Source of the DNA: Paracyclopina nana
Lineage: Eukaryota; Arthropoda; Copepoda; Cyclopoida; Cyclopettidae
DNA length: 64,000 nucleotides
Reading direction: 5' to 3'
Assembly (NCBI GenBank): GCA_019096065.1
Contig: JAGUCH010000004.1
Location: 5,394,001 to 5,458,000 of the forward strand
The notes beneath the pieces were generated by a model. That model was not told the DNA's origin. It saw only the letters and a list, made by a program, of their open reading frames with translations, and searched no databases. A program made the translations under genes and the position numbers. Position 1 is the stretch's first letter. Every line of letters starts with the position of its first letter. Positions 6,897-31,571 of the stretch are shown in pieces.

Positions 6897-6900
6897 TAAT

Positions 6901-7609
6901 TGGTGTACAATTCGTACTCTCTTCAGGAACCTAGGAAGGTTAAGCATCGGTCCCAAGTCCAGTACTCATTCGCAACACCGGAGCTGCCAGGTCTCACGAG
7001 CCGCTATGCAGAGGCCGCAGCCTCACGTACACAGCTTCTGGCAAGGAACCTCTCGGCACGCTTATGTACAGTTGACCAGTGGTTAAGGCTCGCCCTTTCA
7101 CCCTGATCATTCCAGGGATCAGGACCTCGCTATGAGTTGAGCACTAATATACTTCATTAAGGTCTGATGGTATTTTCTATTCATTAGCTGGCACAACACA
7201 ACATAACAGCTGCTTCTAATCAGAGCTCAAAACAATATATATGACAATAAAGTTTCTTCTCTGTGGCTGTCTCTTCAGTGCTGCACACGTCAAACTTGGC
7301 GAGGATCTTCAGGTTCCAGCTGCTGGCAGAGTTCACACCAGTCAACCTCTAGCTATAAGGTTGACATGTTGCTTCTCTGAAGTCCCCTGAAGAACTCCCT
7401 TCTACCTCGCAATCCTGCCTTGTCCTCCCAAGGCTAACCTCCCTTCACCAGGTAGCTTCATCTTCCTTCCCATATTTCTGATGCAATTCAACAGGGAGGT
7501 TGCGAGGTTATGGTTGATATTTTTGCGTTGAATAGTCATCTTCTTCTTCCTTCTGTTTCTGTCATCCCATTTCCATATCATAACGCCATGATGAACTTGT
7601 CGTCCATCA
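6901..7609 (-). repeat. 3' LTR (left copy)
   Basis: This 709-bp copy appears identical to 30859-31567 in a base-by-base reading. In sense orientation it begins TGATGG and ends CACCA. A TATATATTG stretch on the sense strand could serve as a promoter. The only canonical AATAAA I see is on the plus strand (around 7245), where it could end transcripts running in the antisense direction. Confidence 0.95.
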
Positions 7610-7632
7610 TTACCCCGGCCCAAACTTTTTCA
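7610..7632 (-). other. Probable polypurine tract next to the 3' LTR
   Basis: On the sense strand the 23 bases immediately before the 3' LTR are purine-rich (A5-G-T3-G3-CC-G4-TA). This is the expected place for the plus-strand primer of reverse transcription. The tract is interrupted by pyrimidines, so the exact primer is uncertain. Confidence 0.5.
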
Positions 7633-7728
7633 GCTTTTGTCATCATTTTATGAACTAAAATATGAAAAAAGGTGACTAGATTGCTCAATAGTAAATGATA
7701 AGTGATACAACAAAACTTTAGCTTTATA

Positions 7729-8247
7729 CTAACGTAGCAGCTCCAAGTTTGTTTTTGCACCCATCAGTCCCATTTCCATGGGGTCCTTTTCATTGTCAAG
7801 GCGCCTGGCATTAACCCGCCGGCGCCCAGTTCTTGGTTCAACATAATCAGGCTCTCCACAGCATCTGCGGATTAGTGCCCGACGTTTCCACACTAGGATG
7901 CAGACTAACAAAATTATAATAAAGCCTGAAAGTGTGCTTATAATTAGTATGATTTTCCAATGGTCAAACAAACCCAATGGCTCTTCCTCTGGAAACTTTG
8001 TAAAGAACTTCAAAATGTCACTTTCCCATGGGGAGTCTTCATACCCAGTACTATAACTTCCCATCGTGACCAGGCAATGGCTCAGTACTTGGTACGAGCC
8101 AGGCACTAAAGTTATGGAATTCTTAAAGTCATTTAAGCAAGTCCTGTTTATAGAAGTGTCCTTGATGACGTTCAGGAACCCTCTGTACTCCTGGCAAGCC
8201 ACTTCTTCCAATGTATTATCAGCCAGTGGGACCATGTTACACTCGGA
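7729..8247 (-). CDS. Env-like glycoprotein, C-terminal frame with membrane anchor
   Basis: This open frame has a cysteine-containing ectodomain part, an N-glycosylation site (INRT), a strong membrane segment (about 22 residues from WKIILIISTLSG) and a basic cytoplasmic tail starting KRRALIRRCC. It is the expected C-terminus of a type I envelope glycoprotein, just upstream of the 3' LTR where env lies in retroviruses. It overlaps the preceding frame (8172-8993) and is in the -1 frame relative to it. A CCCTTTT heptamer lies in the overlap at 8247-8253. I do not recognise the glycoprotein family. Confidence 0.7.
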   Translation of the reverse strand, partial: SECNMVPLADNTLEEVACQEYRGFLNVIKDTSINRTCLNDFKNSITLVPGSYQVLSHCLVTMGSYSTGYEDSPWESDILKFFTKFPEEEPLGLFDHWKIILIISTLSGFIIILLVCILVWKRRALIRRCCGEPDYVEPRTGRRRVNARRLDNEKDPMEMGLMGAKTNLELLR

Positions 8248-8993
8248 AAAGGGTCACCCAAAGCTAGGCCCAATAATAACTTGGCACACTGTTGGGCTCC
8301 GTATGGTATTGTAACATGCTTATTACCACACACAGTGACATTGGCATCATGCATATAGCAATCTCCATAAATAGGTAGATCCTTAGTGACATAAGCCATA
8401 TCTTTATATTTTGTTAAGAATGTGTCTGCTAACACTTGTCCATGAACACTTCTAGACACTACTTTAAATGTCACTTCAGGTTCAGGATCCAGACTGTGGG
8501 AACTCATCATTCCCTGAGATACACTATCGCCCACCACTTCAGTATTAGTTAGTGGATCATACACACTATTTGTCACAGCTTGGTTCTCCAAATCACTAGC
8601 TATGTTAACTCGGGGCAGACTGAATCGCTTGTCAACCTGCCTAATGTTTCTAGCAAAGGTTACTATTTGTTCCACCATCGCTAGCACTTCCTTGTAATCT
8701 CCGGGCAAGTAGCCGAGTTTTACAAATGCGTCACTAACCTTTCGTAGCATGTGTACTGCCAAACTAATATTATCCGGAATGACCAGAAGTTTGACTTTCT
8801 TCATCATTCCTTCAGTAAATTTTGTAGTGCGACCAGCTTCAGCAAGGTTATTAAGAGCGGTCAAAGCATGGTTGACCATACTTTTGGCCTTGGACAATTT
8901 ATGGCTGATCCGGCCTTTATGATTAATGGCATATTTATGACGTACACAGATAGTTCCCACTGGGCTTGTGCCGTCAAAGATGTGACGAGGCCT
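8172..8993 (-). CDS. Env-like glycoprotein, middle frame
   Basis: This continuous frame has no start codon of its own that I would trust; the best candidate is a GTG. It contains a long helical, heptad-like stretch early on and later a cysteine-containing region with an NVT site. It lies between the signal-peptide frame (8974-9603) and the anchor frame (7729-8247). It therefore reads as the central part of one glycoprotein whose frame is broken twice. The first break is a +1 change within the 20-nt overlap at 8974-8993. Whether the breaks are recoding, splicing, mutation or assembly error cannot be told here. Confidence 0.6.
   Translation of the reverse strand, partial: RPRHIFDGTSPVGTICVRHKYAINHKGRISHKLSKAKSMVNHALTALNNLAEAGRTTKFTEGMMKKVKLLVIPDNISLAVHMLRKVSDAFVKLGYLPGDYKEVLAMVEQIVTFARNIRQVDKRFSLPRVNIASDLENQAVTNSVYDPLTNTEVVGDSVSQGMMSSHSLDPEPEVTFKVVSRSVHGQVLADTFLTKYKDMAYVTKDLPIYGDCYMHDANVTVCGNKHVTIPYGAQQCAKLLLGLALGDPFPSVTWSHWLIIHWKKWLARSTEGS
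8247..8253 (-). other. CCCTTTT heptamer of the -1 slippery form
   Basis: In the frame of 8172-8993 the heptamer reads C CCT TTT, which fits X XXY YYZ. A -1 slip here enters exactly the frame of 7729-8247. I did not find a clear downstream pseudoknot by eye. Confidence 0.4.
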
Positions 8994-9603
8994 CTACTAG
9001 TTTTTTATCAGTAAACTTCCCTGTTATGCATGGGAACCCAGGTTTGATGGAAGCTTTAGGAACTTCTTTCCATGGAATTCTATCAAACTGAACACGTCCA
9101 TCCAGTGAAACTGGAGAGTTCCCAATGAAACGAAACTTCAAGCAAAACGTGAAGGTAGTCGCAGTATTAGAATCTGCTGCTTGAGTCAAAAGTTCTAATG
9201 TTCTGTCCATGTCAACTTGGTTTTCCGGAATAAACGAGTTAAAATCAAGTCCTAGTGTTTTACACTCCTCATCCAATTTCGTTGGGAGAGCCTTAACACC
9301 CACATATTCTCTATCTTGGTAGGTCACTACATCAGTGGGAGTCTGAGTTGTAGGAACCTCCTCCGTTAATCGTCCCACCCCATCCTCAAGCATATTCACC
9401 GAGTCACGGGTCTTTTCAAGGAGCTGGCGGAAATTACCAGTGTCAATGATCATAGCCTTTTTATCAGGCTTAGGATGATAAACCATGCGCACAGGGACCA
9501 AGGCATGCCCTTTGTGACATACCGGTCCATCTAATAGTGCGTTAGATGCAGCCCGGCTGTTGATTATGGGCACGGACAAAGTTAAAAGCACAAGCACCAA
9601 CAT
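8974..9603 (-). CDS. Env-like glycoprotein, N-terminal frame with signal peptide
   Basis: Starting at the ATG at 9603, the frame opens with a classical signal peptide (MLVLVLLTLSVPIINSRA). A roughly 190-residue ectodomain with several cysteines follows. The stop is TGA at 8974-8976. An upstream TTG in the same frame is a less likely start. A TATA-like element (9657-9667) lies about 55 bases upstream of the ATG, so this gene may be transcribed from its own promoter rather than spliced from the genomic RNA. Position next to the 3' LTR, signal peptide here and membrane anchor at 7729-8247 together support an envelope-type protein. The subfamily is not recognised. Confidence 0.65.
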   Translation of the reverse strand: MLVLVLLTLSVPIINSRAASNALLDGPVCHKGHALVPVRMVYHPKPDKKAMIIDTGNFRQLLEKTRDSVNMLEDGVGRLTEEVPTTQTPTDVVTYQDREYVGVKALPTKLDEECKTLGLDFNSFIPENQVDMDRTLELLTQAADSNTATTFTFCLKFRFIGNSPVSLDGRVQFDRIPWKEVPKASIKPGFPCITGKFTDKKLVEASSHL

Positions 9604-9656
9604 TATTAACTCAGCGAATGTCAAGTAAAAACTGACTAGGCCCCAGGCCTACGCCG

Positions 9657-9870: not shown

Positions 9871-11469
9871 TTAGAATTGGTCAACAAACTCATTTATCGC
9901 CGCTCCAAAGGACTTCAAGTCAGTTGATGATAGCGTCTCCATCTTGGCTACAATTAATTGGCCCAATCGAGCCTTTTCCTTGTCACCCTTGGTACGTTTC
10001 GCTTTTGGAGCTCCTTGTTTTATAGACATGGCCCCAGCAGATTGATTGGTCGCCGCCTCCAAGTAAGTGCGGGTACCTCGACGGTTTTTCTGTGGCCGAT
10101 CCTGTATTTCAGCTACCTTCAGTGAGCGGGCCCCAGAGATGAAACGCATCGCTTGGGGGTTAGAGCGCTCTACTCTTTCCACAAACCTGCCTACCTCGCG
10201 AGGTAGCATGGCAGTCATGTCAACTTTGATATCGATTCTTCGTGGGGCTTGAGCAACCTCATGCATAAGGCAAGACGGGGTTCCAACGTGCAATTGGAAG
10301 TAAGGTGAGCTCACATCCATAAAAAGCCTGGCATTGGCAAAAGACCTATCCAGAGTTGGCTTTAATTGAACAACGCCATGTTTAGCCAGATGCTTGGACA
10401 CCACAACAGGTACCCTGGCACCGTCTCTTCCTTGGACATTGTAGACTGCGTAGCTAAGTGCAGAGGGACTTTGAATCGCAGCCCAATCCCTGACATTAGT
10501 GCGTCGATGATAGGTGTCATTGAACGCAGCCTCCTTTGGCAAATTGAAGACCGGGAGCGTCCCCAACATCAAGAAGACCACCACAAAATCTGGTAGCGGT
10601 CCTCCCTCGCTAACTGGCTTCAATTGTAACTCGAAAGTCTCAAAGTTACACACCTTTAATGGGCGGCGGAAGTCCGGTTGCTCCAGAACCTCGCCATTGC
10701 AGCGTACCGTGATATCAAAGGCTCTCTCACGGCTAACCATCGGAGTATTACTGATAGCCACTTTTAACATGGCCTCGTTAAAGCCCCTCTGGACCAATTC
10801 TCTTACTGCCATTGCTTGACGGTTATACGTCTTGACGGTGTCCGGAAATGGGGGGCGGATCAAGTCCTGATACGCCACAGGATACCTCAGCCTCACAGCT
10901 TCATCCCCAAGGGGGAGCTCAACTATGCAAGGCCTCATCAATCTTGGGTCAGCACGGGCTACCTCAACATTGTGAGTAGGTGCTAGTCCTTCATCATCCT
11001 GATCCATTTTTTCAGTCATAACTCTAGCATTTGGAGCCCGAGTCACAGTAGCAACTTCATGTTCTACATTCTCGTGGATAACCTGGTCACCAGAGTCCTT
11101 CCTTGAAGCCTCACCTCCCCTCACAAGTAAGGGAGGCCCCTCAGCCTCGTCAGCCTCATCACCAGTTTGGGTATCAGCAAAGAGCGCCATCTGGTCTAAT
11201 CCAGCACTTTCTTCGTCCCAAAACTGGGCATTAGCCCGGTATGCATCCTGATCAATGGTACCAGGGGCCACACCCTCAGGTACCTCTTCCATAAGTAGAG
11301 CCTCATGTTCATGATCCTCCAGTTGCGGGATCATGACTACGTCAACCTTTCGGACTTCACCGTTCTTTTTCGGGTCCATCTCGTTTTCAGGCAAAGCTTC
11401 ACCAAGTTTGGCAAGACTGGGGAGGGTGGTATCGGCAGCAGTGTTCATCATAGACTGGAACCTGCTCAT
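9871..11469 (-). CDS. Accessory protein of the retroelement, 533 aa, unrecognised
   Basis: This single uninterrupted frame has an acidic, probably disordered N-terminal third. The central region (roughly residues 160-430) looks folded and is rich in Val, Leu and Arg. The C-terminal tail is basic, containing PKAKRTKGDKEKAR, which looks like a nuclear localisation signal. I see no transmembrane segment and no motif of a polymerase, protease or integrase. The acidic/folded/basic build would fit a nuclear regulator or nucleic-acid-binding protein, but that is inference. A TATA box (GCTATAAAAG, 11481-11490) lies only about 12 bases before the first ATG (11469), so ATGs at 11451 or 11448 may be the real starts. 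It is divergent from the plus-strand gene at 11797. Confidence 0.7.
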   Translation of the reverse strand: MSRFQSMMNTAADTTLPSLAKLGEALPENEMDPKKNGEVRKVDVVMIPQLEDHEHEALLMEEVPEGVAPGTIDQDAYRANAQFWDEESAGLDQMALFADTQTGDEADEAEGPPLLVRGGEASRKDSGDQVIHENVEHEVATVTRAPNARVMTEKMDQDDEGLAPTHNVEVARADPRLMRPCIVELPLGDEAVRLRYPVAYQDLIRPPFPDTVKTYNRQAMAVRELVQRGFNEAMLKVAISNTPMVSRERAFDITVRCNGEVLEQPDFRRPLKVCNFETFELQLKPVSEGGPLPDFVVVFLMLGTLPVFNLPKEAAFNDTYHRRTNVRDWAAIQSPSALSYAVYNVQGRDGARVPVVVSKHLAKHGVVQLKPTLDRSFANARLFMDVSSPYFQLHVGTPSCLMHEVAQAPRRIDIKVDMTAMLPREVGRFVERVERSNPQAMRFISGARSLKVAEIQDRPQKNRRGTRTYLEAATNQSAGAMSIKQGAPKAKRTKGDKEKARLGQLIVAKMETLSSTDLKSFGAAINEFVDQF

Positions 11470-11796
11470 TTCCACCCCTTCTTTTATAGCTCTCAACCAG
11501 GTAACCAACAGCGCCTCACAGCGTTATTATTACCATAATTTCTCTAGCACGTTCATATTATAGTGCGCAATTTTCTCGTTGCCGAGGTGAATCATTTCTC
11601 CCCGCTGAAATCGTTGCTCTTGTCTCCAAGATGCTGAGTCAACAAATTCCACTGCTCAAGTCTCGGTCTTGCAACATACGTCAAGCTCTCTTGCATAAAA
11701 GGCAATGCCCTGGTCAGCTTTCACGCAGTCTTCAGCAGCATATCAACCCTTGAACTTATAATAGCCCAACTTTACAGTTGTTTATATACATAAGTC
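11470..11796. promoter_or_regulatory. Divergent promoter region inside the retroelement
   Basis: Two TATA-like boxes face away from each other: GCTATAAAAG on the minus strand (11481-11490, serving the 533-aa gene) and GCATAAAAGG on the plus strand (11693-11702, serving the mucin-like gene). About 200 bp separate them. This suggests a bidirectional promoter embedded in the element. Confidence 0.55.
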
Positions 11797-12810
11797 ATGG
11801 GTTTCCTCCAGTTGCCCACCACCACTACGGCGGCTACAACTACAACAGCAATGACTAGCACATTGCCAACGACAGTTCGTCCCACTGCAAAGACCCTTGC
11901 AACCACCACTAGGTGGACCTTGCCCGAGTCTTGGACAAGGACTTCAACAATGGCGACTGCAGCACCCCCAACTAGGGTTACCACGGCCTCTACTAGTCCT
12001 CTCCCTGAGGTTGCAACCTCTATGGAGTCTGTTCCAAAGGATACCGCGGTGATCGACCCCTCTGTACCGTCATCCCGAAGTTTCTTCGAATTCGATCAGT
12101 ACAGCGTTCAGGATTGGGTTGGCCTGGTAGCGGCCCTAGTGATCATTTTGGTGAGTCCAATTATGACCATTGAATTTAAGCAAGGCTAGTCATTAATACT
12201 TTTCCTCGCCATCGTAGCTTCTTCTAATCATGGTCACATGCTTCTTGTACCGCCTGTACAAGAGGTGCAAGCGGTGCTGTCTATGCCGAGCCTGCGTTGA
12301 GAACGCAGAGGTCATTGACCAGGTTGAGCTGGAGCCTCTGGCCTTGCCATTGGCAAACCCCTCTTTCCCGGAACTTTACGAAACTATGAGTAGGAGACCG
12401 TTGCCTTCATTGCCATTGTCCAATTTTGATAACATGATCTTGGTACGTGGAGGCACGCCCCCTTACCATGTCTCCACCTTTTCACGCCCATCATTGAACG
12501 AGCCCATCTATGATGTGCTGCGGCCACTGGGACAAGTAAGTAATTGTCCGTTTCCTTAATGGGATCAAAGCTCAATGAAGATGTCTGCTCCATGCGTTTT
12601 GTGTACCTTAAATCCTCATCAGGTGCCCTTTTTTTTTTACAGGGGCAAACAGATGAAAGCCAACGCTCTAAGCGGAGAAGGAACAAAAGGCGCCGCAACC
12701 GGAGCCAGTTCTACGTCAATGTCCCGAGGACCACTGGGGCAGTGATCCAAGAACTACCAAACGAGGCCACCCACGCATTGTCAAGCACTGTAGCAGAGCC
12801 CACCAATTAG
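11797..12810 (+). CDS. Antisense-strand mucin-like single-pass membrane protein (3 exons)
   Basis: Exons 11797-12150, 12218-12535 and 12643-12810 join in phase 0 at both junctions (GTGAGT...GTAG and GTAAGT...TTTTACAG) and give 279 residues. The first ~105 residues are a Thr/Ser/Pro-rich, probably O-glycosylated stalk. The membrane segment is made across the first splice junction (from WVGLVAALVIIL on). The tail begins with a Lys/Arg/Cys-rich patch, likely palmitoylated, and carries Tyr motifs (PELYET, EPIYDVL) and an Arg/Lys-rich run. There is no obvious signal peptide. Positive-inside charge predicts N-out, C-in. The gene lies on the strand opposite gag-pol-env, has its own TATA-like box and ends at AATAAA (12970). 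I do not recognise a family. A missing upstream signal-peptide exon is possible. Confidence 0.7.
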
Positions 12811-12969: not shown

Positions 12970-12983
12970 AATAAACTAATAAA
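12970..12983 (+). terminator. Polyadenylation signals of the mucin-like antisense gene
   Basis: Two AATAAA hexamers (12970-12975 and 12978-12983) lie about 160 bases after the stop codon on the plus strand. Confidence 0.6.
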
Positions 12984-13194: not shown

Positions 13195-13737
13195 ATGGCC
13201 CCATTTTTGGACGGTTTTTTCGTAAGTGCAAACAGAAATCTTTAAATTCCAGTGCAATCTTATACATAAAACAACATTTTTATGTTTTACAGTCAAACGA
13301 ACAAACAACAGCAGCAGCAGCAGCAACGGCTGCCCCCGCCCACCTTCCCGTCGAAGGGGGGCAGGCCGCGGCCGAGTCCGCGGTCCTGCTGCCCCAGGAG
13401 CCCGCAGGCCAGCTGGCGGGCCTTCAAGGCCAAACCTGCCAGGGGGATGGTGTTGTAAGTTCTTTTCATAACAGATTAGATCCCTTTAGCGATCTTCCTT
13501 TTCATTGCAGGCCGAAGAGATTCTCTAGGGCATCGCCATAAACGTGGCAGCGGCGGCCACCTATTATGGGGTGGTGCTCCCGGGCTTGGTCTGGGTCAAC
13601 CGGGCCAAGCCCCGGGGGCTGTATCGGCTCGTCAGCCGAGTCTGGGCCGAGCCAGAGGAGCTCCCCCGGGTGACCCGCTGGGTCCTCGGCCTCCTCGGGA
13701 TCCCCGAGACCGAGGACCCCCTCGAGGGCGTGGTGTA
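13195..13737 (+). CDS. Antisense-strand small GC-rich gene with in-frame UAG
   Basis: Exons 13195-13221, 13293-13454 and 13511-13737, plus a 3' exon from 13797, have good GT-AG signals. The introns are AT-rich and the exons strikingly GC-rich. From ATG 13195 the spliced frame gives 68 residues (an Ala/Gln/Pro-rich protein) up to a TAG at 13526-13528. The frame stays open beyond the TAG for 69 more codons, with a hydrophobic stretch and proline/arginine-rich end. It then stops at the next junction, where TA joins A to make TAA when spliced. A TATA-like CATATAA (13144-13150) lies about 45 bases upstream of the ATG, and AATAAA (13879-13884) lies in the last exon. No family recognised. The readthrough product is a possibility only. 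Confidence 0.55.
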
Positions 13738-13796
13738 GTAAGTGTCCTTATCAGGATTAATGAAATCACCCTTGACACTGTCTTTTATTTTTGCAG

Positions 13797-13900
13797 AACT
13801 GTCTGGTTTCGAGGAGGGGCGACAGGGCGCACCCCCGGCCCACCCTTCCGCCGGGCCCGGCCTCGCCTCCCTTCAGGCAATAAAGCCAGTTCCACCTTAC
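13797..13900 (+). terminator. 3' UTR exon and poly(A) signal of the small GC-rich gene
   Basis: The acceptor TTTTTGCAG (ending 13796) precedes a GC-rich, apparently non-coding exon carrying AATAAA at 13879-13884, followed by a GT-containing stretch. Confidence 0.55.
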
Positions 13901-14319
13901 TTCTGATATCTGAGTTTTCGCAAATCATTTCGCGTTTTCTGAGCTGAGCAACTTATCATCGTCTGGGCCTCAGCAAAGACTACGGCTTCTTCAAGTGCCG
14001 AATTGCTTTGCCTGCCTCATCTTATCATATCATATTTACGTTAGCATGGCATAACTTGAGCCTTGCCGACTACAATATTCTCATGTGCGTATATAGCTAA
14101 TTCGCACTTTTTCACGCATCTCAGCGAAAAGCTACATTTACAGCGTTCGTCACGCACATTATAATTAGCTCCACAGGTAGAAAGCCATAGCAGAAAATCA
14201 GAGGTTAAGGTCTTATCTCGTCACCTCACGTGAGCAGGTAATAACAATAACCTTCTCGTACTCGGTTCAGCACTTGCACATAAAATTCTGTACGGTGCGA
14301 CGAACAGATTACTTTCCAT

Positions 14320-17060: not shown

Positions 17061-17444
17061 CGTCACATACGTTGCAGCCAGCACACTTTTACTGATGGTT
17101 TCAGTGGTCACTGCACCCAAAATATCATAGACAGATTTTTTGATATAAGTCAGCTTTTTTATATAGAAGCTTGTTCAGCTGACCGAGCAAGAACTTTAGC
17201 TTAGTTTACCTTAATGCTCAAATTTCCATACGTGTACATATCTTGTAGGGAAAGTTCTGCAAAGGCTACTCAGCATTTATTAGAATTTGGCAGAATTTTG
17301 ACAAATCCAGTCGCTTTTGGATATCTTTTTCCCGAGCAAAACTACAATGTTTTAGTTTGCAGTCTGCTTATTTTGCAAAATTATCTGCTAATTTAGCAAA
17401 AACGTTTTCAAATGGGCGCGGGCCCCTTGGTCTCTAGGTGGCGC
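14776..17444. promoter_or_regulatory. Array of five CTCF-like motifs
   Basis: Matches to the core GCGCC(A/C)(C/T)CT(A/G)G are at 14776-14789, 15382-15395 (GCACCATCTAGCGA), 16210-16223, 17038-17051 and, reversed, 17431-17444. The first four recur once per tandem unit and point the same way. The fifth is in the opposite orientation just before a TATA-like element. CTCF binding and insulator activity are inferred from the motif only. Confidence 0.45.
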
Positions 17445-17484
17445 CACACCCCTTATATAATTGCACCCTGACGCGGGCCAGGAT

Positions 17485-22600: not shown

Positions 22601-25600
22601 TAAATGTACCGATATTTTACGCTTAACAGTAATTGCGTCAACAATAACATTGTTTTCTATGTCAAAGACAGGGGATTCAGGGTTAGCTTCACCTTCAAAT
22701 GAATGCGAAACCTCAGTTAACCTGTCAACCTCATCATCATCCTTATGACGCGCATGAAGAATAGTGGAAGTGTCATCATGAACAAAAGGTGGAGAGGAAC
22801 CTATTAGTTCAACCCACTTGTCATTCAGACATTGTAATCTTTTTTGTAGTAAAGACTTTGACATAGTACCTGAATTAACCAAAGTGTCAAATACATGTGT
22901 CAAAAGTTCCTGCGTGGTTATTACTTTAGAGGAAATTTCCTCCGGGAGTGGATAAACACCAGCATAAATGTCCTTCGTAATTTGCGATTGAATGGAATAC
23001 GGTGCAAAGAACACTGTATTTCCCTCAGTTTGATGATACTTATTCAATAATATATCAACAATTTCAATCTCAGTTCTTGGCACAGCACGTATTTTCCACG
23101 CTACTGGCAAGGAGTATATTCTCGCTGCAAGTCTGTGCGTAAAAGCATCTTTACCAGTAAATGAGCTAGCCAGTATACTGGCAATCGATAGACAATCAGT
23201 TACTATCACTAACCGCTCATACGCAAAGAGTATACTTTTATAGTGGTGTATCATCATTAATACACCTAATGCTTCTCGCTGAAACGAGTGGTAAGACAAG
23301 CACACTGACAATGGGAATCTAGCACTGTGAGCCCCAACACACACTGCCTTCCCATTGGCATCAATTTCCATAAGTAGAGCTGAGGTACTTATTACACCCG
23401 AGTCTACTACTAAATACGCTTCCTTGAAGTTAGGCAAGGCCAAGGACATTCCTGTCTTTATTTCCTCTATAACCTTGTAAAAGCATTTTTCTTGAAAAGG
23501 GGAGAAGTTAAACTTCCCTGTTTTCCCCTGTTTAGTTGCCATTACATCCAATAGAGGTGCCGTGTAAGTGGCCATGTTAGGACAATATTGGCTTAACCAG
23601 TTGGTCATACCAATGAACTTTTGTAATTGCTTCTTTGTTGAAGGCATCGGGAAGTCATCAAACGCAGTCCTGTATTTATCAGGCATCTGCATCGTCATAA
23701 CTCCATGCTCATCAATTTTTATGAGGTGTCCAAGGACTGTAGCTTCCTTGACCCCTAATTGAGTCTTTTTGATTTGTAATAATGCATTTAGTTCCCTTAA
23801 ACTGTCAAACAGTTTCCTGAGATCACCTAAATGCCTCTTATAATCGTCTAGAGTTGCCGGCTTCGGTTTGTCCGGATTCTTGCAAGAGACCAATAAATCG
23901 TCTACATAGACACAAGTGAAAGGTAATATTTCAGGATTAATTGCCTGAATTAATAAAGATGAAAATTCTCTCACAGCCAAGGCCGTACCCTGCAATATAG
24001 CCTTACTTTTCAAATAAAGGCCTCTATACCTAGACCGTGGTGACGTCACAGCTAGGCAGCACATATCTGCACTGTCAGAATCGACAGGTAAATTGTCATA
24101 TCCTGAGGTGACATCAAAAGATGACATCAAACATGAGTTCGAAAGCATCCCTAATAATGTAGGAATAGGTGGAACAATATGTTCAGATGGCGTGAAAATT
24201 AGGTTCTTATTAAAGGACGTCAGGTCCACTAATAACCTAGGTTTACGTTGTTTCATAGGTAACTTTTCATCGTTTGGCCTTGATGTCAAGAAGCAAGGAC
24301 AAGCAGAGTACCTATTCAAAGACTTATCTACTATCTCAATTAGACCAGAAGATAACATCAATGATATCTTTCTATCCACTTGAGTGGTTTCATATTCAGA
24401 CATGTTAAACACCTTCGGTACCAGGGGTTTATTGTCCTTCAATTGAAACTTTACGGGGTCCACATTCCATAACCTAAAAGATCTCGGATCATCAGAGAAG
24501 ATGTCCTTATATTCTATCAATATATTCCTGTAGTCTTCTCTGACTTCCACTGGTATGTGGTCCAGGTCAAACTTTAAGACGGTGTCAAGTTCCAATGGAA
24601 AGGTGTAGCCAGCTACTCCATTTAGAACTCGATGTGGGTCAAATTCACTAGGGAACTGCAATAAAAGGTTATAAACCTCTTCATACAGCCTCTGATTCTT
24701 TGCCTCGTCTTGCGTTATTTCTAAAGAAGCGGACACTAGGTCCAATTCAGATGGGTTTTTAATTACCGTTTGCCTGACACAAAGATCAGCTATAGGGCCT
24801 TCATATATTGTAGTGTAACTTTTACACACTATCTTAGACCCAGCACGGTTAGCTAGACAAAGAGCACAAGCACAATTTTCTGGCTTAAACTCAAAAGGTA
24901 TAAAACCACCAAACTTTGTCTTTATATCCTCAAATGTAGATTCATGTGGATACATAGGCAAGCCCGATAGTAATAACAATGCAGAAGACACTGCTAAACA
25001 CACAGGTTCTTCTACTGACACATCACCATCCATTAAGGTTCTCACCCATATATTATCAGCCACACATTTGTAACGTAAGTGGCCAAATATATTGTAAACT
25101 AAGGTAGCCATGTAACCAACATCCCTTGATTTGGGGCAAGGCACATGGATCATTAGTTCTATATCATTTGCTATCTTATACATGACGGTGGGAGCACCCA
25201 AGATAGTGAATTCGTAATATTTATCATTTCCATTTCTTTGATAAGCAACAGGAAAGCAATCATAACTATGAACCATGATAGTTAGCACCACTCTCTCCAT
25301 ACCAGCCAGGTAATTCTCTATAGGAGTGAGAGCTATAGTCCTACATTTATCATGAACGTTTTTGTATTTTACCCAAACTACACTTAGTTTTTCAACTATA
25401 GAGTTGAGCTTTAATATAATCCGCTTTTGTTCCCCAGACAATAATTTGTCACTAGGGACAACAACTACCCATGGTAGGCTATTCCAGTTCCATTTACTGA
25501 CAAACTCTATCAATAAGTCATCAGTGATTTCCTCAAAACCATCAGATTGGTTAGAGGCAATGAAAACATGGTTCCAATGTCTGGTTAGCTTTTGTTTAAC

Positions 25601-27088
25601 ATTACCCTTTATGTGAACTTGTTCATTAAAGGTGTGCATGTCAGTGAAAGCTAATCCATTTATGTCAACAAATTGCACCAAAATATGCGTGTCAATAAAC
25701 TCACAATAGCAAGTGTCCACTATATGGTTCAAAGACTTTAAACTGAGGTTTAACTTATGCACTATTTGGGTAGGCTTATAGCGTTGTTTCTTAACAATAT
25801 TAGCCTTTCCTATGATAGAATGAGCCTCAATGTAAATGGGCTCGTCAGAATTATTACCTATCTGCACTGGAAAAGTGCCCTTCCGGGTCACAGAAGTAAC
25901 ACATCCTTCAGCAGTAGCGCTGGTATAATCCTCATCCGGACTAAATTCCAAACACTTATCATGAAAGCTAGAGTAAACGCTTTTACTTTCTGGCTTTACT
26001 TTAACTTCATCATGGTCCACTTCGGCGTCTGAATCACCAAGAATGGGCTCAGCTACCAAAGGTATCTCATGCGGAAAGCTAGCATTAACTGTCACTTCCC
26101 TTCCAGGTAGCACAGTAATACTTTCATTTATAGCTACAGGGTAAAACGCTTCCTTAGTAAGGACTAGGGGAATCTTTTTATATTTTATTCGCCCTGGGAA
26201 ATCAATAAAATGACTTCCATCCCTACTAGTCAAGCGTATGTTGTTATCTACTAATAACGAATTCCCAATCATAAGCAGGGTCTCACAGTCAGAGACTAAG
26301 AACACTGCTTGTCTAATCAGTACTCTATTGTTAAAGGCGACTTGCAGAACCACGCCTTCAGTGCTGGGAAATTCTTCCCCATTGAAATTCTTAATAAGAT
26401 AATTGGTTTGAACTCGCGGTAATGAGTAACCCAATTTTTCTTCAACTAACCTTACTAGTGTGCGAGATATGATTTGAACCATTGCTCCACTGTCAAATAA
26501 GGCATGAAGTCTTATCTGGCCTGTAATTTGGACAGGTATGTAGTACCTTTCACACACATTGTGTAGTTTTAAGGAAAATACACTTAGCGTGTCATCATCT
26601 TTAATGATCCCTTCTGGCTGTACATTTTCATCCGGAGTTTCAATGCAGCCAGCAGTTAGCTTCGCCACATGTACAGGTACATCATACGTGTGGGATGTGT
26701 CTGGGAAAAACCAGCACATACACCAGCATACCATTATTATAATGTATACTATCGCTACAGGCACGACTTGGTCATAATTGTTCAGCCACAGCACCAAAGC
26801 TAGCATCACAATTACCCATAACAATATTCCTTTCCACATCCTAGGTGGGGTTAACCCATCTTTAGTCTCATTCATGTACTGAGAACCAGATATGGCCAAA
26901 ACAATGGCACTTGAGGTTTTTTCATCAGGCCTCTTTGCGCACTGTTTTCTCTTTTCTGAGAGTGCTTTTAGATGATCAAAATACACTCTCCCTACTTCTT
27001 TGTTACATTCTCCACGCATAAATGAGGGCAGAACATAACAATCATCAAGTGTAGTGTCTGTTTTAGGTTCTTCTTCCATTTCAGACAT
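19607..27088 (-). CDS. pol: Pol polyprotein: membrane segments, protease, RT, RNase H, integrase, long tail
   Basis: The frame is open from 27118 (2,503 codons), and the first ATG is at 27088. Residue numbers below count from 27118. Two adjacent hydrophobic segments (about 95-112 and 119-138) precede the protease active site DSG (209-211). RT has FDVTSGYDNLPVD and the catalytic YVDD (1071-1074; bases 23897-23908). RNase H carries D/E/D residues near 1239, 1281 and 1306. Integrase has an HHCC zinc finger (about 1580-1635) and the catalytic triad D1655, D1716, E1756. After integrase a further ~600 residues, Ser/Pro/Lys/Glu-rich, have no domain I recognise. The domain order fits Ty3/Gypsy or BEL/Pao elements. 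Membrane segments before protease and the long tail are unusual. The ATG overlaps the stop of the previous frame as TAATG. Confidence 0.92.
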   Translation of the reverse strand: MSEMEEEPKTDTTLDDCYVLPSFMRGECNKEVGRVYFDHLKALSEKRKQCAKRPDEKTSSAIVLAISGSQYMNETKDGLTPPRMWKGILLWVIVMLALVLWLNNYDQVVPVAIVYIIIMVCWCMCWFFPDTSHTYDVPVHVAKLTAGCIETPDENVQPEGIIKDDDTLSVFSLKLHNVCERYYIPVQITGQIRLHALFDSGAMVQIISRTLVRLVEEKLGYSLPRVQTNYLIKNFNGEEFPSTEGVVLQVAFNNRVLIRQAVFLVSDCETLLMIGNSLLVDNNIRLTSRDGSHFIDFPGRIKYKKIPLVLTKEAFYPVAINESITVLPGREVTVNASFPHEIPLVAEPILGDSDAEVDHDEVKVKPESKSVYSSFHDKCLEFSPDEDYTSATAEGCVTSVTRKGTFPVQIGNNSDEPIYIEAHSIIGKANIVKKQRYKPTQIVHKLNLSLKSLNHIVDTCYCEFIDTHILVQFVDINGLAFTDMHTFNEQVHIKGNVKQKLTRHWNHVFIASNQSDGFEEITDDLLIEFVSKWNWNSLPWVVVVPSDKLLSGEQKRIILKLNSIVEKLSVVWVKYKNVHDKCRTIALTPIENYLAGMERVVLTIMVHSYDCFPVAYQRNGNDKYYEFTILGAPTVMYKIANDIELMIHVPCPKSRDVGYMATLVYNIFGHLRYKCVADNIWVRTLMDGDVSVEEPVCLAVSSALLLLSGLPMYPHESTFEDIKTKFGGFIPFEFKPENCACALCLANRAGSKIVCKSYTTIYEGPIADLCVRQTVIKNPSELDLVSASLEITQDEAKNQRLYEEVYNLLLQFPSEFDPHRVLNGVAGYTFPLELDTVLKFDLDHIPVEVREDYRNILIEYKDIFSDDPRSFRLWNVDPVKFQLKDNKPLVPKVFNMSEYETTQVDRKISLMLSSGLIEIVDKSLNRYSACPCFLTSRPNDEKLPMKQRKPRLLVDLTSFNKNLIFTPSEHIVPPIPTLLGMLSNSCLMSSFDVTSGYDNLPVDSDSADMCCLAVTSPRSRYRGLYLKSKAILQGTALAVREFSSLLIQAINPEILPFTCVYVDDLLVSCKNPDKPKPATLDDYKRHLGDLRKLFDSLRELNALLQIKKTQLGVKEATVLGHLIKIDEHGVMTMQMPDKYRTAFDDFPMPSTKKQLQKFIGMTNWLSQYCPNMATYTAPLLDVMATKQGKTGKFNFSPFQEKCFYKVIEEIKTGMSLALPNFKEAYLVVDSGVISTSALLMEIDANGKAVCVGAHSARFPLSVCLSYHSFQREALGVLMMIHHYKSILFAYERLVIVTDCLSIASILASSFTGKDAFTHRLAARIYSLPVAWKIRAVPRTEIEIVDILLNKYHQTEGNTVFFAPYSIQSQITKDIYAGVYPLPEEISSKVITTQELLTHVFDTLVNSGTMSKSLLQKRLQCLNDKWVELIGSSPPFVHDDTSTILHARHKDDDEVDRLTEVSHSFEGEANPESPVFDIENNVIVDAITVKRKISVHLPGITRNLLIRLQQNCEETQKLVNMLVLTPEHEVPTSIAARYRVIDCALLVIRKNVKLPFTKATNTKVYMSMQNCVYLMACIHLLHNHLGSKKVNTLFTQSMFSTYSARISRIIVGACMHCALYRQANTRFVGKGRFRIPDKPFDLVMIDLAYFDQTLVKGKDAKVCLVIIDVYSKMIIAKPLLNSTYREVATAMEEVTSLFGVPKTLLADNGAQLTSNHALQRLIDKYKIQELCQYRTLSPNKHSNAYAENSVRVLRNALILNSKSYKRPMSEVFKLSVYAINNRPLTYLSYTDPNGVKVIPTPFSLFFDKMPGYHLGRDVFEILSESEDIIHKAEWQDVMRKYDEEEQRRFELMKATERPSFKPEIGSLVLVIKHPVNKHGYKFMQDLFEVIDVGSHSTVTVKPYLHDGLTREVSLDHVKLYRFHELYKFLPEKITHLLMRPYTPDEMLQRLSRNEMLKFLEEDEPEVNEYALRNRVSQSIAARDEAKSEWASNVTEELITATSSLGTSTIKDHQTLKHSGSILRKKATDLFKPSDVRRIQEENRRIVKQQWDNYVPKPPPNEGVTDSADSAHMKEGSYLSPDEQKADKLIDQLLESSSKTYETTLYEELKSLQSEDLPTFEDLAAKGKVFLEVPKSTRPRSPSQISTPTNMTGTLLNDDVSPVPRAFRGRRSPRPSPKSPEQEEADISKVVSEASLLINQDKFDTDLESLASALENVGEFIDDEYIDSQPLYQPTIADVLETFESEKDFEETLSKVMAENRKFSPDTKNRFLDAFKRGSQLLKKKLSMSPKKNDKEEDGNQSIKSNVIPSAPTREQIYETDMLQNDSESSSTSSPEDELLSPIKEAAVPGASDEVEPEGAAAAIPLKILQRPREGLRDKPRVDYKAMVTRRYNRKLPIHYNPGHPRESALTPEERELARIKYSFRNPRPKPNEKYILQKVVPAWRKDTNVATVQDYSKFLEAGGLDHLNDSFVQELKKLRLNRHELYLLVHKQFK

Positions 27089-27315
27089 TACCTTCGTGCT
27101 TGTCTCGACTTCCAGCACGGTAATCCATTTATGACCTTGTGTAATCCTTTACAAGATATACACACAGTGCCATCCTTTTTTAACTCATCCAGTGAAACAC
27201 CTGGATAGTTCTCGCAACTTTTGGCATAGTGGGTCCCATTGCAGAACAGGCATCCACCTGTTTCAAATGGGTTTCCATGGCAGCTTACTAATGTCGATAT
27301 TAAAGGTAGCTGCAA
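27088..27315 (-). CDS. Nucleocapsid-like zinc-knuckle frame
   Basis: This short frame contains CLFCNGTHYAKSC (C-x2-C-x3-H-x4-C), and about 30 residues later CISCKGLHK... C. The pair resembles the twin zinc knuckles of BEL/Pao Gag proteins, which bind the RNA genome. It has no trustworthy start codon and is in the +1 frame relative to the capsid-like ORF it overlaps (27263-27315). It is therefore probably the C-terminal part of Gag reached by frameshifting or splicing. Its stop TAA shares one base with the Pol ATG (TAATG at 27090-27086). Confidence 0.7.
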   Translation of the reverse strand: MQLPLISTLVSCHGNPFETGGCLFCNGTHYAKSCENYPGVSLDELKKDGTVCISCKGLHKVINGLPCWKSRQARR

Positions 27316-28369
27316 TTCTTTTAGATCGCTCAGCCTCAGTCTCGGCTTTTAACGCCGCTACTTCAGCAGTTTGGCGTTCCAATTCTGTATTCTTTCTAGC
27401 CAACTCACCATGCAGAGCACTTATTATTTTGGCACTCTTTGAGCTAACATGTGACATCACTGATAGCATGCTAGCACTGTCCAAATTGTCCTCATCAACT
27501 TCAACCATAGCAAGATGGGCTTTGTGTTTAACAGCTGGGGCCATAGGTAGCCTAGCATCTCTAGCCCCTCTGTCTCGCTCAGTTTTCGGTATGTGAGTCC
27601 CCACATGGCCCCCAATTACCTTGACCATCTCCGATAGAGCGGCCATGCTCCTCAGGGGCGTACCTTGTTTCAACAGATGCTCATGGTATATATTGATATA
27701 CCCTTGGTATTGTTGAGGCCAATGCCTTTTCAGTAGGGCATGTGCATCAGTGATCGTCTCAGAAATGGCATGTGCTTTGCCATCTCCATCCATAGAGTCT
27801 CTATGGATTCGCAACCTGAGTTTATACAATTCCCTAACGGATTGATCAAAAGTCTGGGTGGGGTTCCTGATGATGTTATGTATTCTTACAAACTCATCTA
27901 CCTCCTGGACATTCTTGGTGTAAGCATAGATGTCATTCCAAAGGATCTCTACGCCTTCACTTGCCACACCTCTGAAGTACTCAGCTGTGCTTGCAGTAGC
28001 CCCTTCGCATAAACCTTCAATTATAGCATCATGGCTCCAGTCATACCGGCGGGCCAGTGTGCTCACTGTGCGCAAGAATTCTAGCACACTATCAGCAGTA
28101 TTAGAAGAACTTTGCATATCGAACCTCTTAGCGTACTTTGCTCTGATCTCCTTGAGGGCACTAGTATTGGCAAATTTCAGATGCCCATTAGGAGGCAAAG
28201 GTATATAATCCTTATTGTATTTAGGATCATACACACTTTTCGAATGTTCGGAGTACGAGGGAACAGCATAGCTCACCTCAGGGCTTTTTAAGTGACATTC
28301 CACAAAGATTTTGCGCTGCAATGGGGTGAACTCAGGTCTGGTCTGCAAGGCCTGAAATAGTTTTGCATC
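27263..28369 (-). CDS. gag: Capsid-like Gag frame
   Basis: This is a mainly helical protein. A region around residues 80-220 resembles retrotransposon capsid domains in its helical pattern (FLRTVSTLARRYDW ... LWNDIYAYTK), and a coiled coil lies near the C-terminus. Open sequence starts at 28369 but no ATG lies near the beginning, so expression probably depends on the upstream ORF (28288-29571), with which it overlaps in the -1 frame. No canonical slippery heptamer was found in that overlap. It leads directly into the zinc-knuckle frame, the expected Gag order. Capsid assignment rests on position and helix pattern rather than a sequence match I can name. Confidence 0.6.
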   Translation of the reverse strand, partial: DAKLFQALQTRPEFTPLQRKIFVECHLKSPEVSYAVPSYSEHSKSVYDPKYNKDYIPLPPNGHLKFANTSALKEIRAKYAKRFDMQSSSNTADSVLEFLRTVSTLARRYDWSHDAIIEGLCEGATASTAEYFRGVASEGVEILWNDIYAYTKNVQEVDEFVRIHNIIRNPTQTFDQSVRELYKLRLRIHRDSMDGDGKAHAISETITDAHALLKRHWPQQYQGYINIYHEHLLKQGTPLRSMAALSEMVKVIGGHVGTHIPKTERDRGARDARLPMAPAVKHKAHLAMVEVDEDNLDSASMLSVMSHVSSKSAKIISALHGELARKNTELERQTAEVAALKAETEAERSKRIAATFNIDISKLPWKPI

Positions 28370-29571
28370 TCAATGACCTTTTTTCCAGGTGACAACTCCG
28401 GATCCACCATTTGCAACACAACTCGCCTAGCAGATTCAACATCTATTATTTCATTAATATTGATAGCTTCAATCCTTTCATCCAGTGGGGCATCTTCATG
28501 GTAGACCGACTCAGCCACTGGTACTAATGAATCCTTGGACGCAGCATCAGCTAATTTCAAAACCCGTTCAAGGTTTCGTTCGTAAATATCATTTGGGTCA
28601 GCCCCAAACATGTGCTTTGCAGTCATTTGGGCAGTAGCTATTATTTTATTAGCAGTGCTCGCATCATGCAACGCAGTGTAATGGGCTCGCACCACACCCA
28701 AGTCATATGGACTCAAGGTCTTTCCTTTCAACAATTTCATTACTGTGGTTTCTACCACCTTACCAGGGGGCAGAACCACCGAATTATTTAGGACAGTCAA
28801 GTCTTTCAAAGTCATTTTAGTAGAAGTGAGGATTGATTTTTGGCCATCTTGGAACCCAACCTTCTTGGGGATGGCCGACAGGTCCAATGACTTGTTTTTA
28901 TTAGCATCCTTTGGCGGATCCTCCACTGCAAACGAAGTGGAGATCACTAGTCCTTCTTCCTCATCAGGTTCTAAGAAGAAGTCAGGCCGTAATCCAAACA
29001 AAGCAGCAACAGCATCTAATCCTGTTGCTGGGTTAGTAAGTTTCTCTTTATTAATCATGGTACTCAGAGCTGTTATTATTGGCTCCAATTCCTCATTAGG
29101 GCTAGCAAAGTCCTCTTCACCAGCATCAGTAGACCTGTTAAGAATGATCGTTTTCTTCTCCCTGAATGCTTTATTCAAATACTCCATACCAAAACAATAG
29201 AGGAGCAAAGCACACGTAGCCGAATTGCGATCAGGAGGGTCAATTGCATTGACATACCTGACCACCACCATAATCTGTCTAATAGGATCATCCTGGGGCA
29301 TTTGCTCTATGATTTTCATAATATGCAAATCAAGAGAAAGGGGCTCCTCGGTGTTTAGGACAATAATTTGTGTAGCATTCCATGCCCTTACCACCTCTGT
29401 CTTGGTGACATTCAAGGTACCAGTAGACGTTGGGTACTTGACCCACGATAGAAAGTCCTTCACTGCCTCCCTGCTTCCCCCAGTAGGAGTGCAAGGTTTC
29501 AGCAGTTTCCCCAAAGCAATCTCAGTGACTTCCAAGTGCACTCGAAGTGCATTTTTCAAATCACGAGACAT
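28288..29571 (-). CDS. Gag-region ORF 1, 427 aa, unrecognised
   Basis: This is the first sense ORF after the leader. It starts at an ATG in acceptable context (29571) and ends at TAA (28288-28290). It is a soluble, helical, charged protein with no signal peptide, membrane segment or zinc finger. By position it would be a matrix-like or additional N-terminal Gag part. Because a separate capsid-like frame follows, it is extra compared with most LTR retrotransposons. No family recognised. Confidence 0.65.
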   Translation of the reverse strand: MSRDLKNALRVHLEVTEIALGKLLKPCTPTGGSREAVKDFLSWVKYPTSTGTLNVTKTEVVRAWNATQIIVLNTEEPLSLDLHIMKIIEQMPQDDPIRQIMVVVRYVNAIDPPDRNSATCALLLYCFGMEYLNKAFREKKTIILNRSTDAGEEDFASPNEELEPIITALSTMINKEKLTNPATGLDAVAALFGLRPDFFLEPDEEEGLVISTSFAVEDPPKDANKNKSLDLSAIPKKVGFQDGQKSILTSTKMTLKDLTVLNNSVVLPPGKVVETTVMKLLKGKTLSPYDLGVVRAHYTALHDASTANKIIATAQMTAKHMFGADPNDIYERNLERVLKLADAASKDSLVPVAESVYHEDAPLDERIEAININEIIDVESARRVVLQMVDPELSPGKKVIEMQNYFRPCRPDLSSPHCSAKSLWNVT

Positions 29572-30837
29572 CCTTCCGTTTCGCTAAAGAGAGGTTCTCT
29601 TTAACTCAACTTGTCCTTTAGTTTCGTCAGAGAAGTTAATCTCTAAGACTCAACTAGGTTTTTGTACTAAGTTAACACAAATGCTAACTTTCCGTACAGA
29701 GCTACGTCGCACGACTTAAAAGCACTAGGCCTCTAATCGCACTCAATTAAAAGCTAAAGCTTTTAATCGTAATACTGTTCAAAGCACAGTTAGCTTCCTA
29801 CTTACGCCGGTCAAGTGACTCGGAGAAAAAGTTGCAATTACTATGACAAGTTTTTATTTCAATGATTAGGACCACTTTTACCTAAGTAGTCTTCACCAAA
29901 GACCCACACGCACACAAATATACACACACACACACAAGAATAAAGATGAGCACTTGCTCAGAAGAGATATTACCAAACCTAGGCACCAGATGTCCAACAG
30001 AATCCTAAGTGCCCACAAGCTGAAAAACAAGGGTTGCATTCACTTTTACCAATCCTGAACGCCACTGTGCTGAGCAAGCTCAACAAAGTGAATGGAAAGA
30101 GAAAGAGGTACACACACACACAGGTATACGAAGCTCGCCCAGGCGCGCACTCTTTGCGCCCCAGAAGAGCCCTGGTCCAGAGCACCATACACTTTCCAGG
30201 GTGGCTTCCACCCCAAGCTCCATGCATGCCCTACACGCTCCAGGTTATTCGTTCTTCCATCTGCTTCAGCTTCTAACGGGTTCAACTTTCCAAAATGGCT
30301 CCCATCTTGAGCTCCATTGACCCATTAAAGCCCACAGGGGCAATGACACGCATGCCACCACCCGGCTACCATTTCCGGCTGCTTGGCTCCCATTTTCCAG
30401 CTTAAGACAAGCAAGGACGTCCCCACGGGCCTTCTCCCTTAGGAAATGATAGTACCAAGCCACACAACATAGGAACTTTGTCTGGCTAGGATCCATGGAA
30501 TTTTCTTCACAAACTAGGGCCGTCCATTCATAGATATAGTCTATTTAGGCACAACCTCTAAATGTGGCAACGGTGCGAAATGTACGTGTGCCTTTTTCAT
30601 TGCATTTACCGCTAGACTACACATAGACACTTCCACCGGGATGGCCTTCTTGGCTCGTCAGCCTCAGGACTTTTACAGTATTGACACACCCCAGTCGCAA
30701 CTAAAGTGCCGCCTAACCATCGCAGCCTCGCCCTCGGCAATTCACAGCCACAAATGGGTAACTTCAGGACGCATCCATCCATCTTTTTCCAGGACTTCTT
30801 TTGGTCTTCAAACCACTAGAGAGAGAGTGGCCATTCT
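29572..30837 (-). other. Untranslated leader of the retroelement
   Basis: About 1.27 kb lies between the PBS and the first sense ORF. It contains a short CA-rich microsatellite (around 29905-29940; a second CA stretch near 30110-30122). It has only short overlapping frames on both strands, none with recognisable content. It would be the place for packaging signals, but none can be identified from sequence alone. Confidence 0.5.
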
Positions 30838-30855
30838 ATCCCTCCGGGGCCTCCA
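30838..30855 (-). other. Primer binding site, tRNA-Thr type
   Basis: The sense strand reads TGGAGGCCCCGGAGGGAT, starting 3 nt after the 5' LTR. Its first ten bases are the exact complement of the 3' end of many animal tRNA-Thr molecules (GGGGCCTCCA). This fixes the orientation of the element. Confidence 0.75.
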
Positions 30856-30858
30856 AAA

Positions 30859-31567
30859 TGGTGTACAATTCGTACTCTCTTCAGGAACCTAGGAAGGTTA
30901 AGCATCGGTCCCAAGTCCAGTACTCATTCGCAACACCGGAGCTGCCAGGTCTCACGAGCCGCTATGCAGAGGCCGCAGCCTCACGTACACAGCTTCTGGC
31001 AAGGAACCTCTCGGCACGCTTATGTACAGTTGACCAGTGGTTAAGGCTCGCCCTTTCACCCTGATCATTCCAGGGATCAGGACCTCGCTATGAGTTGAGC
31101 ACTAATATACTTCATTAAGGTCTGATGGTATTTTCTATTCATTAGCTGGCACAACACAACATAACAGCTGCTTCTAATCAGAGCTCAAAACAATATATAT
31201 GACAATAAAGTTTCTTCTCTGTGGCTGTCTCTTCAGTGCTGCACACGTCAAACTTGGCGAGGATCTTCAGGTTCCAGCTGCTGGCAGAGTTCACACCAGT
31301 CAACCTCTAGCTATAAGGTTGACATGTTGCTTCTCTGAAGTCCCCTGAAGAACTCCCTTCTACCTCGCAATCCTGCCTTGTCCTCCCAAGGCTAACCTCC
31401 CTTCACCAGGTAGCTTCATCTTCCTTCCCATATTTCTGATGCAATTCAACAGGGAGGTTGCGAGGTTATGGTTGATATTTTTGCGTTGAATAGTCATCTT
31501 CTTCTTCCTTCTGTTTCTGTCATCCCATTTCCATATCATAACGCCATGATGAACTTGTCGTCCATCA
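30859..31567 (-). repeat. 5' LTR (right copy)
   Basis: This is a 709-bp direct repeat of 6901-7609, apparently without differences. It is followed on the right by the second TAAT target copy (31568-31571). Its transcription would run leftwards, away from WDR43. Confidence 0.95.
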
Positions 31568-31571
31568 TAAT

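Follow-up and report, generated by a model that had tools for sequence, protein, structure and literature searches.

Can a retroelement of more than 24 kb carry spliced genes on the strand opposite its own genomic RNA, and pass them on when it copies itself? The question is raised by an insertion at positions 6901-31567 of a 64,000-nucleotide stretch of the genome of the copepod Paracyclopina nana (the window, C4:5394001-5458000 in a 92-Mb assembly). That the insertion is one element architecture, and not a chance capture, we regard as practically settled. It is likely to be a recent, env-bearing giant Ty3/Gypsy (Metaviridae-like) retroelement and one member of a whole lineage in this genome, a reading that includes a surface role for two antisense genes, AS1 and AS2, and a regulatory role for a further gene, orfX; these two roles are graded on their own below. 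The reading of AS1 and AS2 as spliced genes on the opposite strand is strongly supported by sequence comparison.

A giant element and its copies

The structural features given in the preliminary description, two 709-bp long terminal repeats (LTRs), a TAAT duplication, a primer-binding site and a G-rich tract, can all be read directly, and the two LTRs are identical.

30859-31567, minus strand: 5' LTR, 709 bp, identical to the other LTR; 5' because the pol strand is minus
6901-7609, minus strand: 3' LTR, 709 bp
6897-6900 and 31568-31571: target-site duplication TAAT, read directly
30838-30855, minus strand: primer-binding site, 3 nt inside the 5' LTR, complementary to tRNA-Thr(AGT)
7610-7624, minus strand: G-rich (polypurine-like) tract abutting the 3' LTR, read directly

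Both LTRs begin with TG and finish with CA; with the 4-bp target-site duplication, the tRNA primer site and the polypurine-like tract, these are the marks by which Ty3/Gypsy elements (Metaviridae) are recognised. The primer site, TGGAGGCCCCGGAGGGAT, complements the last bases of a tRNA-Thr(AGT) gene, extended by CCA; ARAGORN called this gene on contig C2 (locus L049). Without the CCA the site is a 15-mer with 74 exact copies in the genome. When these were compared with 77 of the gag match rows, 71 had one of the rows on the expected strand no more than 9 kb away; of the other three, one is the tRNA gene itself and two have their nearest expected-strand gag row 13 and 16 kb away.

Searching the genome with the LTR gave 47 matches, which we paired by hand. 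Twelve pairs have at least 94% identity, and 11 of these have starts 23,096-24,091 bp apart (the twelfth, 36,524 bp). Three more pairs, at 90-91% identity, lie 22,685-33,330 bp apart, and the rest are single or partial. The preliminary description had named a search for further copies as a check of the element architecture, and the spacing bears the architecture out. It had also raised copies lacking the 9.8-19.6-kb segment as a sign of capture, and this is not what we found. We compared two 10-kb pieces from each of five further copies, out of the 14 other LTR pairs: three close copies hold the segment at 89-98% identity outside AS1, and two divergent copies hold the same genes.

That host DNA was caught by chance between two LTRs, or that the assembly is wrong, could be suspected from the unusual size alone, and introns and polyadenylation signals of their own on the other strand do resemble host genes. 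However, the segment is found again, equally spaced, in other copies of this family (F1), and other families repeat the gene order; this recurrence refutes the explanation, to which we give almost no chance. In addition, 15 of 16 genomic matches to AS1 exon 2 lie between paired LTRs, and the remaining, partial one has an LTR fragment and an orfX match as neighbours.

Related families are present in the same genome. A gag query returned 109 matches, of which 13 span at least 303 of 361 residues at 86-100% identity. A further 51, at 44-48% over at least 346 residues, were assigned to a family F2; 41 of them stand in frames of at least 855 codons, which suggests a recent burst. Families F3 and F4 are among the matches at 23-29%. 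The F2 copy that was read is about 23 kb long, with identical 918-bp LTRs and a CTAG target-site duplication; the F3 copy is about 18.9 kb, with identical 615-bp LTRs and GTAA; F4 was read in pieces, from pol to orfX. The order gag - pol - [AS2 and AS1 on the opposite strand] - orfX - env-like is found in F1 and F2, and all three families share the F1 layout as far as read, F3 without an AS2 that we could find.

Two side observations concern these copies. In the F3 copy the primer site differs: it reads TGGGGGCTCAACCGGGAT (L039, 7061 onwards) and may match tRNA-Pro. Beside an F2 LTR, locus L038 holds tandem copies of about 130-160 bp (1466-2806 and 5463-6732) that also match the other flank in L035; target-site repeats and an assembly structure are the candidate readings.

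Two predicted spliced genes on the opposite strand

11797-12810, plus strand: AS1, 279 amino acids, exons 11797-12150, 12218-12535 and 12643-12810
12970-12975, plus strand: AATAAA signal of AS1
13195-13797 onwards, plus strand: AS2, exons 13195-13221, 13293-13454, 13511 (proximal acceptor) or 13529 (distal acceptor)-13737, and 13797 onwards
13879-13884, plus strand: AATAAA signal of AS2

The preliminary description had predicted spliced genes on this strand, and antisense frames with GT-AG introns do recur in other copies, with AS2 also present in F2 and F4. We consider it very probable that the antisense strand is coding in F1 and F2. The AS1 spliced frame is open in all seven copies spliced in silico. 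In divergent copies the AS2 exons are conserved and the introns are not. By tblastn AS2 reaches E values of 1e-30 in F2 and 2e-12 in F4, a match equalled in none of 2000 shuffles; the best value in F3 was 0.14, and AS2 was not found there. No homologue was found among proteins at E <= 1 (56 candidates). An AS2 exon lies antisense to the gag match at 24 of 24 F2-type and 15 of 16 F1-type places, a count for which 40 of 72 candidates were scored and 40 of the 42 resulting rows used, two short fragments being left out.

The substitution test of AS2 covers exon 3. Between the window and F2, over 68 codons, the proposed frame has 0.159 nonsynonymous (dN) against 0.79 synonymous (dS) substitutions per site. 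Four of the five alternative frames have dN above dS; the remaining one, antiframe 1, which has mirrored codon positions, gives 0.197 against 0.57. Within F1, dN/dS is 0.013/0.11 (L027), 0.086/0.20 (L031) and an uninformative 0.041/0.04 (L025). On these substitutions the predicted second half of AS2 is under purifying selection between families. An arginine-rich alternative frame of AS2 was rejected on its substitution pattern.

With the distal exon-3 acceptor AS2 would encode 132 amino acids, including one helix of membrane length followed by basic residues, and with the proximal acceptor 68. The acceptors are 18 nt apart, and both, with the TAG between them, are kept throughout the comparison, which took in F1 copies and one F2 copy. 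Choice of acceptor would thus include or skip a conserved membrane helix and basic tail. The early TAG might instead be passed by stop-codon readthrough: the frame is identical on either side of it, and TAG-G is kept in the same F1 and F2 copies. Judged by eye, however, TTCTCTAG or TCCTCTAG, cut before a following G, makes a plausible 3' splice acceptor that is exactly in frame, and we think readthrough unlikely, if still a serious contender.

The predicted AS1 protein is more elaborate. Its outer part is threonine-rich, with 37% Ser/Thr in the first 107 residues. It is followed by a single membrane helix, divided by intron 1, and a Cys/Arg-rich juxtamembrane stretch; the tail carries the motifs YETM and YDVL and the last exon is strongly basic. 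AS1 has a weak match in F2 (E 1.9e-4 for exon 1, 0.052 for the whole protein). In F3 and F4 no tblastn match was found at the places assigned by layout, and by layout alone these families would have an AS1 gene, an interrupted membrane segment with a candidate intron, antisense and adjoining orfX.

In both AS1 and AS2 a single hydrophobic segment long enough for a membrane helix is followed by basic residues, and neither has a clear signal peptide. The predicted proteins are probably single-pass, with the N terminus outside and the C terminus inside. They may act at the host cell surface, a suggestion that we make with some reserve. Two other functions have to be set against it. The antisense exons could be noncoding: they might belong to an RNA conserved for its structure or for regulation, or give rise to antisense transcripts that hold the element in check. 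The AS2 exons are GC-rich and conserved at the DNA level, retroviruses have known antisense regulatory RNAs according to the parts of a review cited here (PMC10186651), and the between-family dS of AS2 exon 3, 0.79 against the saturated value of orfX, allows that something beyond protein constrains AS2. But substitutions between families favour one frame of exon 3, the AS1 frames stay open across wide divergence, and Rfam gave a single match over the element at E <= 0.5 (E 0.33, below the gathering score), so that a noncoding role seems very improbable. Nuclear regulators of LTR transcription, like HBZ of human T-cell leukaemia virus (HTLV), are a better candidate, and the basic last exon of AS1 would suit them; the antisense proteins of HTLV and of plant Grande elements are nuclear in the cited excerpts (PMC10186651, PMC11963269). 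The hydrophobic segment in each protein, and the position of the first AS1 intron inside that segment, argue against this, and we think a nuclear role rather improbable beside the membrane-acting proteins that we propose.

AS1 also differs between copies in a way that its neighbours do not. The 16 matches to exon 2 are all free of stops and form two groups, eight at 94-100% identity and eight (one partial) at 57-61%, with none between. These groups are sharply distinct in copies that are otherwise mostly 89-95% identical. In copies L025 and L027, identity to the window is 95% up to AS1, drops to 42-64% within the gene and returns to 92-94% directly after it, with 75 to 100% in the deeper noncoding segment. 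Between the window and L025, dS is 2.65 in AS1 and 0.26 in orfX. L025, with the divergent AS1 type, and L029, with the window type, differ in their env frames by dN 0.015 and dS 0.13, with no split like that of AS1.

Fast diversifying selection could have produced the two types in place, and dN in AS1 is indeed high (0.4). Yet its dS is also near saturation, beside a value of 0.26 in the adjoining orfX. AS1 type and LTR relatedness disagree as well: two copies with 98% LTR identity (C4:9.03 Mb and C3:6.24 Mb) carry the divergent type B, while one with 96% (C4:0.84 Mb) carries the window's type A. Finally, the AS1 of L025 is nearer to that of the divergent copies (dS 0.79-0.87) than to that of the window. 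Diversification in place is a poor explanation of this pattern, which points to AS1 having been swapped between lineages as a cassette.

The best Pfam match of AS1 is Comm (Commissureless), at 26.8 bits for type A against a cut-off of 27.0, and thus below it. Types B and C score 17 and 13 bits, and no match was found in the F2, F3 and F4 pieces. Commissureless is described, in the part of the source consulted, as a Drosophila protein that lowers surface Robo. We treat the likeness as a lead only.

Sense genes, orfX and other features

27263-29571, minus strand: gag, split here into open reading frames (ORFs) 29571-28288 and 28348-27263, with a CCHC-like stretch downstream in another frame
19607-27118, minus strand: pol, 2503-amino-acid open frame with protease-like, reverse transcriptase (RT), RNase H and integrase domains (Pfam)
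26711-26839, minus strand: hydrophobic stretch at the Pol N terminus, with room for two membrane helices (hydropathy)
13900-19606, unstranded: segment without long ORFs, mildly structured, with few degenerate repeats
9871-11508, minus strand: orfX, 545-amino-acid open frame, 533 residues modelled, from 11472 down
7729-9624, minus strand: env-like gene, in three frames here (9624-8974, 8960-8172 and 8235-7729)

Pol has the domain order protease - RT - RNase H - integrase required of Metaviridae. Its RT and rve domains exceed the curated Pfam cut-offs; protease (E 0.034) and RNase H (E 0.0003) fall short of theirs. The solved structure closest to the RT is that of Ty3 (E 6e-22), ahead of caulimoviral-type and retroviral RTs; the integrase gave weak matches only. 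In a nine-row RT tree, which has no named retroviral or BEL rows, F1, F2, F3 and P0001 form a clade with 100/100 support and P0002 falls outside on a long branch. P0001 is an ENA protein from a 25.9-kb contig and is distinct from F4 (42% identity to the F4 piece); a search of viral contigs for its relatives gave one pattern match, not a relative.

In six of seven other F1 loci gag is a single 832-codon frame ending with the CCHC-like motif, and in the seventh it is a 773-codon frame with an earlier stop. At six of the seven F1 loci, as in F2, the gag stop codon shares bases with the pol start codon in a TAATG, and the F3 junction is TAAATG. This overlap suggests that Pol probably starts by stop-start reinitiation and would thus be made apart from Gag. 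The hydrophobic segments at its N terminus are separate in F1, F2 and P0002 and overlap in F3 and P0001; hydropathy showed no such pair in P0003-P0006.

The env-like gene is a single open frame elsewhere (677 amino acids in L025 and L029, 627 in L027, 678 in F3). The two proteins checked each have a hydrophobic segment at the N terminus and a membrane helix at the C terminus, and lack an R-x-[KR]-R site; three env-like proteins had no Pfam match at E <= 1.

Between copies orfX has dN/dS values of 0.017/0.26, and dS is saturated between families. The modelled core (pLDDT, the predicted local distance difference test, 82; pTM, the predicted template modelling score, 0.82) has seven p53 domains and one Grainyhead-like 2 as its first eight Foldseek matches. 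We tentatively take orfX to be a p53-like regulator, and most likely it would bind nucleic acid and regulate the element. There is nearly an even chance that it is some other beta-sandwich protein, capsid-like or otherwise. The p53-type DNA-binding domain carries zinc-binding Cys/His residues, and no invariant Cys or His was found in nine aligned orfX cores. No homologue appeared among 5.8 billion proteins at E <= 0.01 (8000 candidates scored), and the first model had nothing among viral predicted structures at E <= 0.001. Against that alternative, two separate models place p53-family domains first and Grainyhead-like ones near the top, with alignments that cover almost all of the DNA-binding domain. 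The matches listed include no capsid-like or 30K movement-protein one, though either reading may still hold.

The preliminary description had put about 6 kb of repeated, hairpin-rich noncoding DNA in the element. Noncoding holds, as the ORF listing of the window has no ORF of at least 100 amino acids across 13.9-19.6 kb. Hairpin-rich is true only mildly: of 57 windows in this segment, 42% on the minus and 32% on the plus strand have folding z-scores below -2, where 57 windows in pol give 21% and 18%. The word repeated has behind it a single 71-nt pair and a degenerate motif, which occurs near 14501, 15114, 15938 and 16768. A promoter and terminator scan near AS1 and AS2 gave no clear excess over shuffles, with a bacterial-type model unsuited to an animal.

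Three further observations stand apart. In copy L022 identity to the window falls from 99% to about 40% from the window equivalent of about 14950, perhaps through a deletion or insertion in the noncoding segment. At 57469-60747 the window holds an inverted repeat with 413-nt arms, 99% complementary and 2.45 kb apart, with no ORF of at least 120 amino acids between them; it is probably a nonautonomous foldback or terminal-inverted-repeat transposon. Two contigs start differently, C2 (L043) with a (CCTAA)n-like repeat, presumably the arthropod-type telomere, and C1 (L042) with a (CTGGC)n-like one.

Relation to known elements

Ty3/Gypsy elements with env are familiar in arthropods as the errantiviruses (the gypsy group, insect endogenous retroviruses), which are about 7-8 kb long, make a 4-bp target-site duplication and have an Env homologous to the baculovirus F-type fusion protein. 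To our knowledge they have neither orfX nor antisense genes, and, if the predictions made here hold, no other Ty3/Gypsy element that we know of has antisense, intron-bearing accessory membrane genes.

Two reservations attach to the preliminary reading. The window copy is coding-defective: the preliminary description called the element complete, which stands for its structure but not for its coding, since gag and the env-like gene are broken over several frames in this copy and open in others. There are also precedents for giant size (planarian Burro, plant Ogre) and for antisense ORFs between pol and the 3' LTR (Retand, Grande). The statement that no standard class combines these features therefore stands for the combination, of giant size, env and antisense spliced genes, for which we found no description in the literature searched. 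Giant Gypsy size and antisense ORFs are each known separately; it is their combination that appears to be new.

The differences from each precedent are clear in the parts of the sources cited. Animal Gypsy elements can exceed 30 kb, as Burro does, and Burro resembles the present element as an animal Ty3/Gypsy-like element with an internal region above 20 kb, an env-related part and extra domains (PMC6431247). It differs in that Gag, BIR, BCL2 and ankyrin motifs are all found in one ORF1 of about 4,900 amino acids, and in that env separates gag from pol (PMC6431247). The P. nana element has neither that single giant ORF nor that position of env: its gag, pol, orfX and env-like ORFs are separate, env comes last, the LTRs are short and two genes are antisense and spliced. 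Retand and Grande are similar in that a long region separates pol from the 3' LTR, and this region, which holds antisense ORFs and repeats, has been maintained across species; as described in the passages cited, their antisense ORFs are mostly TRP28 or nuclear, the region is 2.9-6.6 kb and the sense ORFs lack membrane regions (PMC11963269, PMC7264820). Here the antisense products are predicted spliced membrane proteins, with no Pfam match to TRP28 at E <= 1 in spliced AS1 or AS2, and there are an env-like gene and about 12 kb between pol and the 3' LTR.

Among retroviruses, HBZ of HTLV is antisense and spliced and ASP of human immunodeficiency virus type 1 (HIV-1) is antisense, hydrophobic and membrane-associated; in the excerpts cited both are transcribed from the 3' LTR, and asp overlaps env (PMC10186651). 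AS1 and AS2 are internal, apart from the sense ORFs, and belong to a Ty3/Gypsy element. The outline of AS2 is also like that of sORF2 (FAST-like) proteins of MDG1-group arthropod Metaviridae, small single-pass proteins with a basic patch next to the helix, whose candidates, in the parts of the preprint cited, are all forward, and the Drosophila elements there lack env (PMC11952523); AS1 and AS2 are antisense and spliced. The N-myristoylation motif MGxxxS/T is absent from the starts of window AS1 (MGFLQL) and AS2 (MAPFLD), as it is from some sORF2 proteins (PMC11952523).

A working scheme can be drawn from these parts. RNA from the 5' LTR would give Gag, Pol after stop-start and env by splicing, while AS1 and AS2 would have internal promoters and would be terminated at the AATAAA signal that each carries. 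Because they lie on the strand opposite the genomic RNA, splicing would not remove their introns when the element copies itself through RNA. Their surface roles would most likely be host-receptor handling, superinfection control or cell-to-cell passage, and exchange of the AS1 cassette would then reflect conflict with the host. It is conceivable, and short of probable, that the element represents a new lineage of large 'complex' Ty3/Gypsy arthropod retroviruses, with sense gag, membrane-anchored Pol, env and a p53/Grainyhead-like regulator and with antisense spliced membrane proteins, one of them cassette-swapped like a surface antigen or host-receptor adaptor.

This element stayed mobile until recently at more than 24 kb, and a single genome offers tests of two questions: the upper size of a packaged Ty3-type RNA, and the way in which retroelements acquire virus-like accessory genes. 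A Pol with its own start and a membrane anchor would, if true, be an unusual route to building a particle. The antisense genes suggest that intron-containing genes can be kept through RNA-mediated copying by placement on the other strand, and the AS1 allele groups point to conflict with the host.

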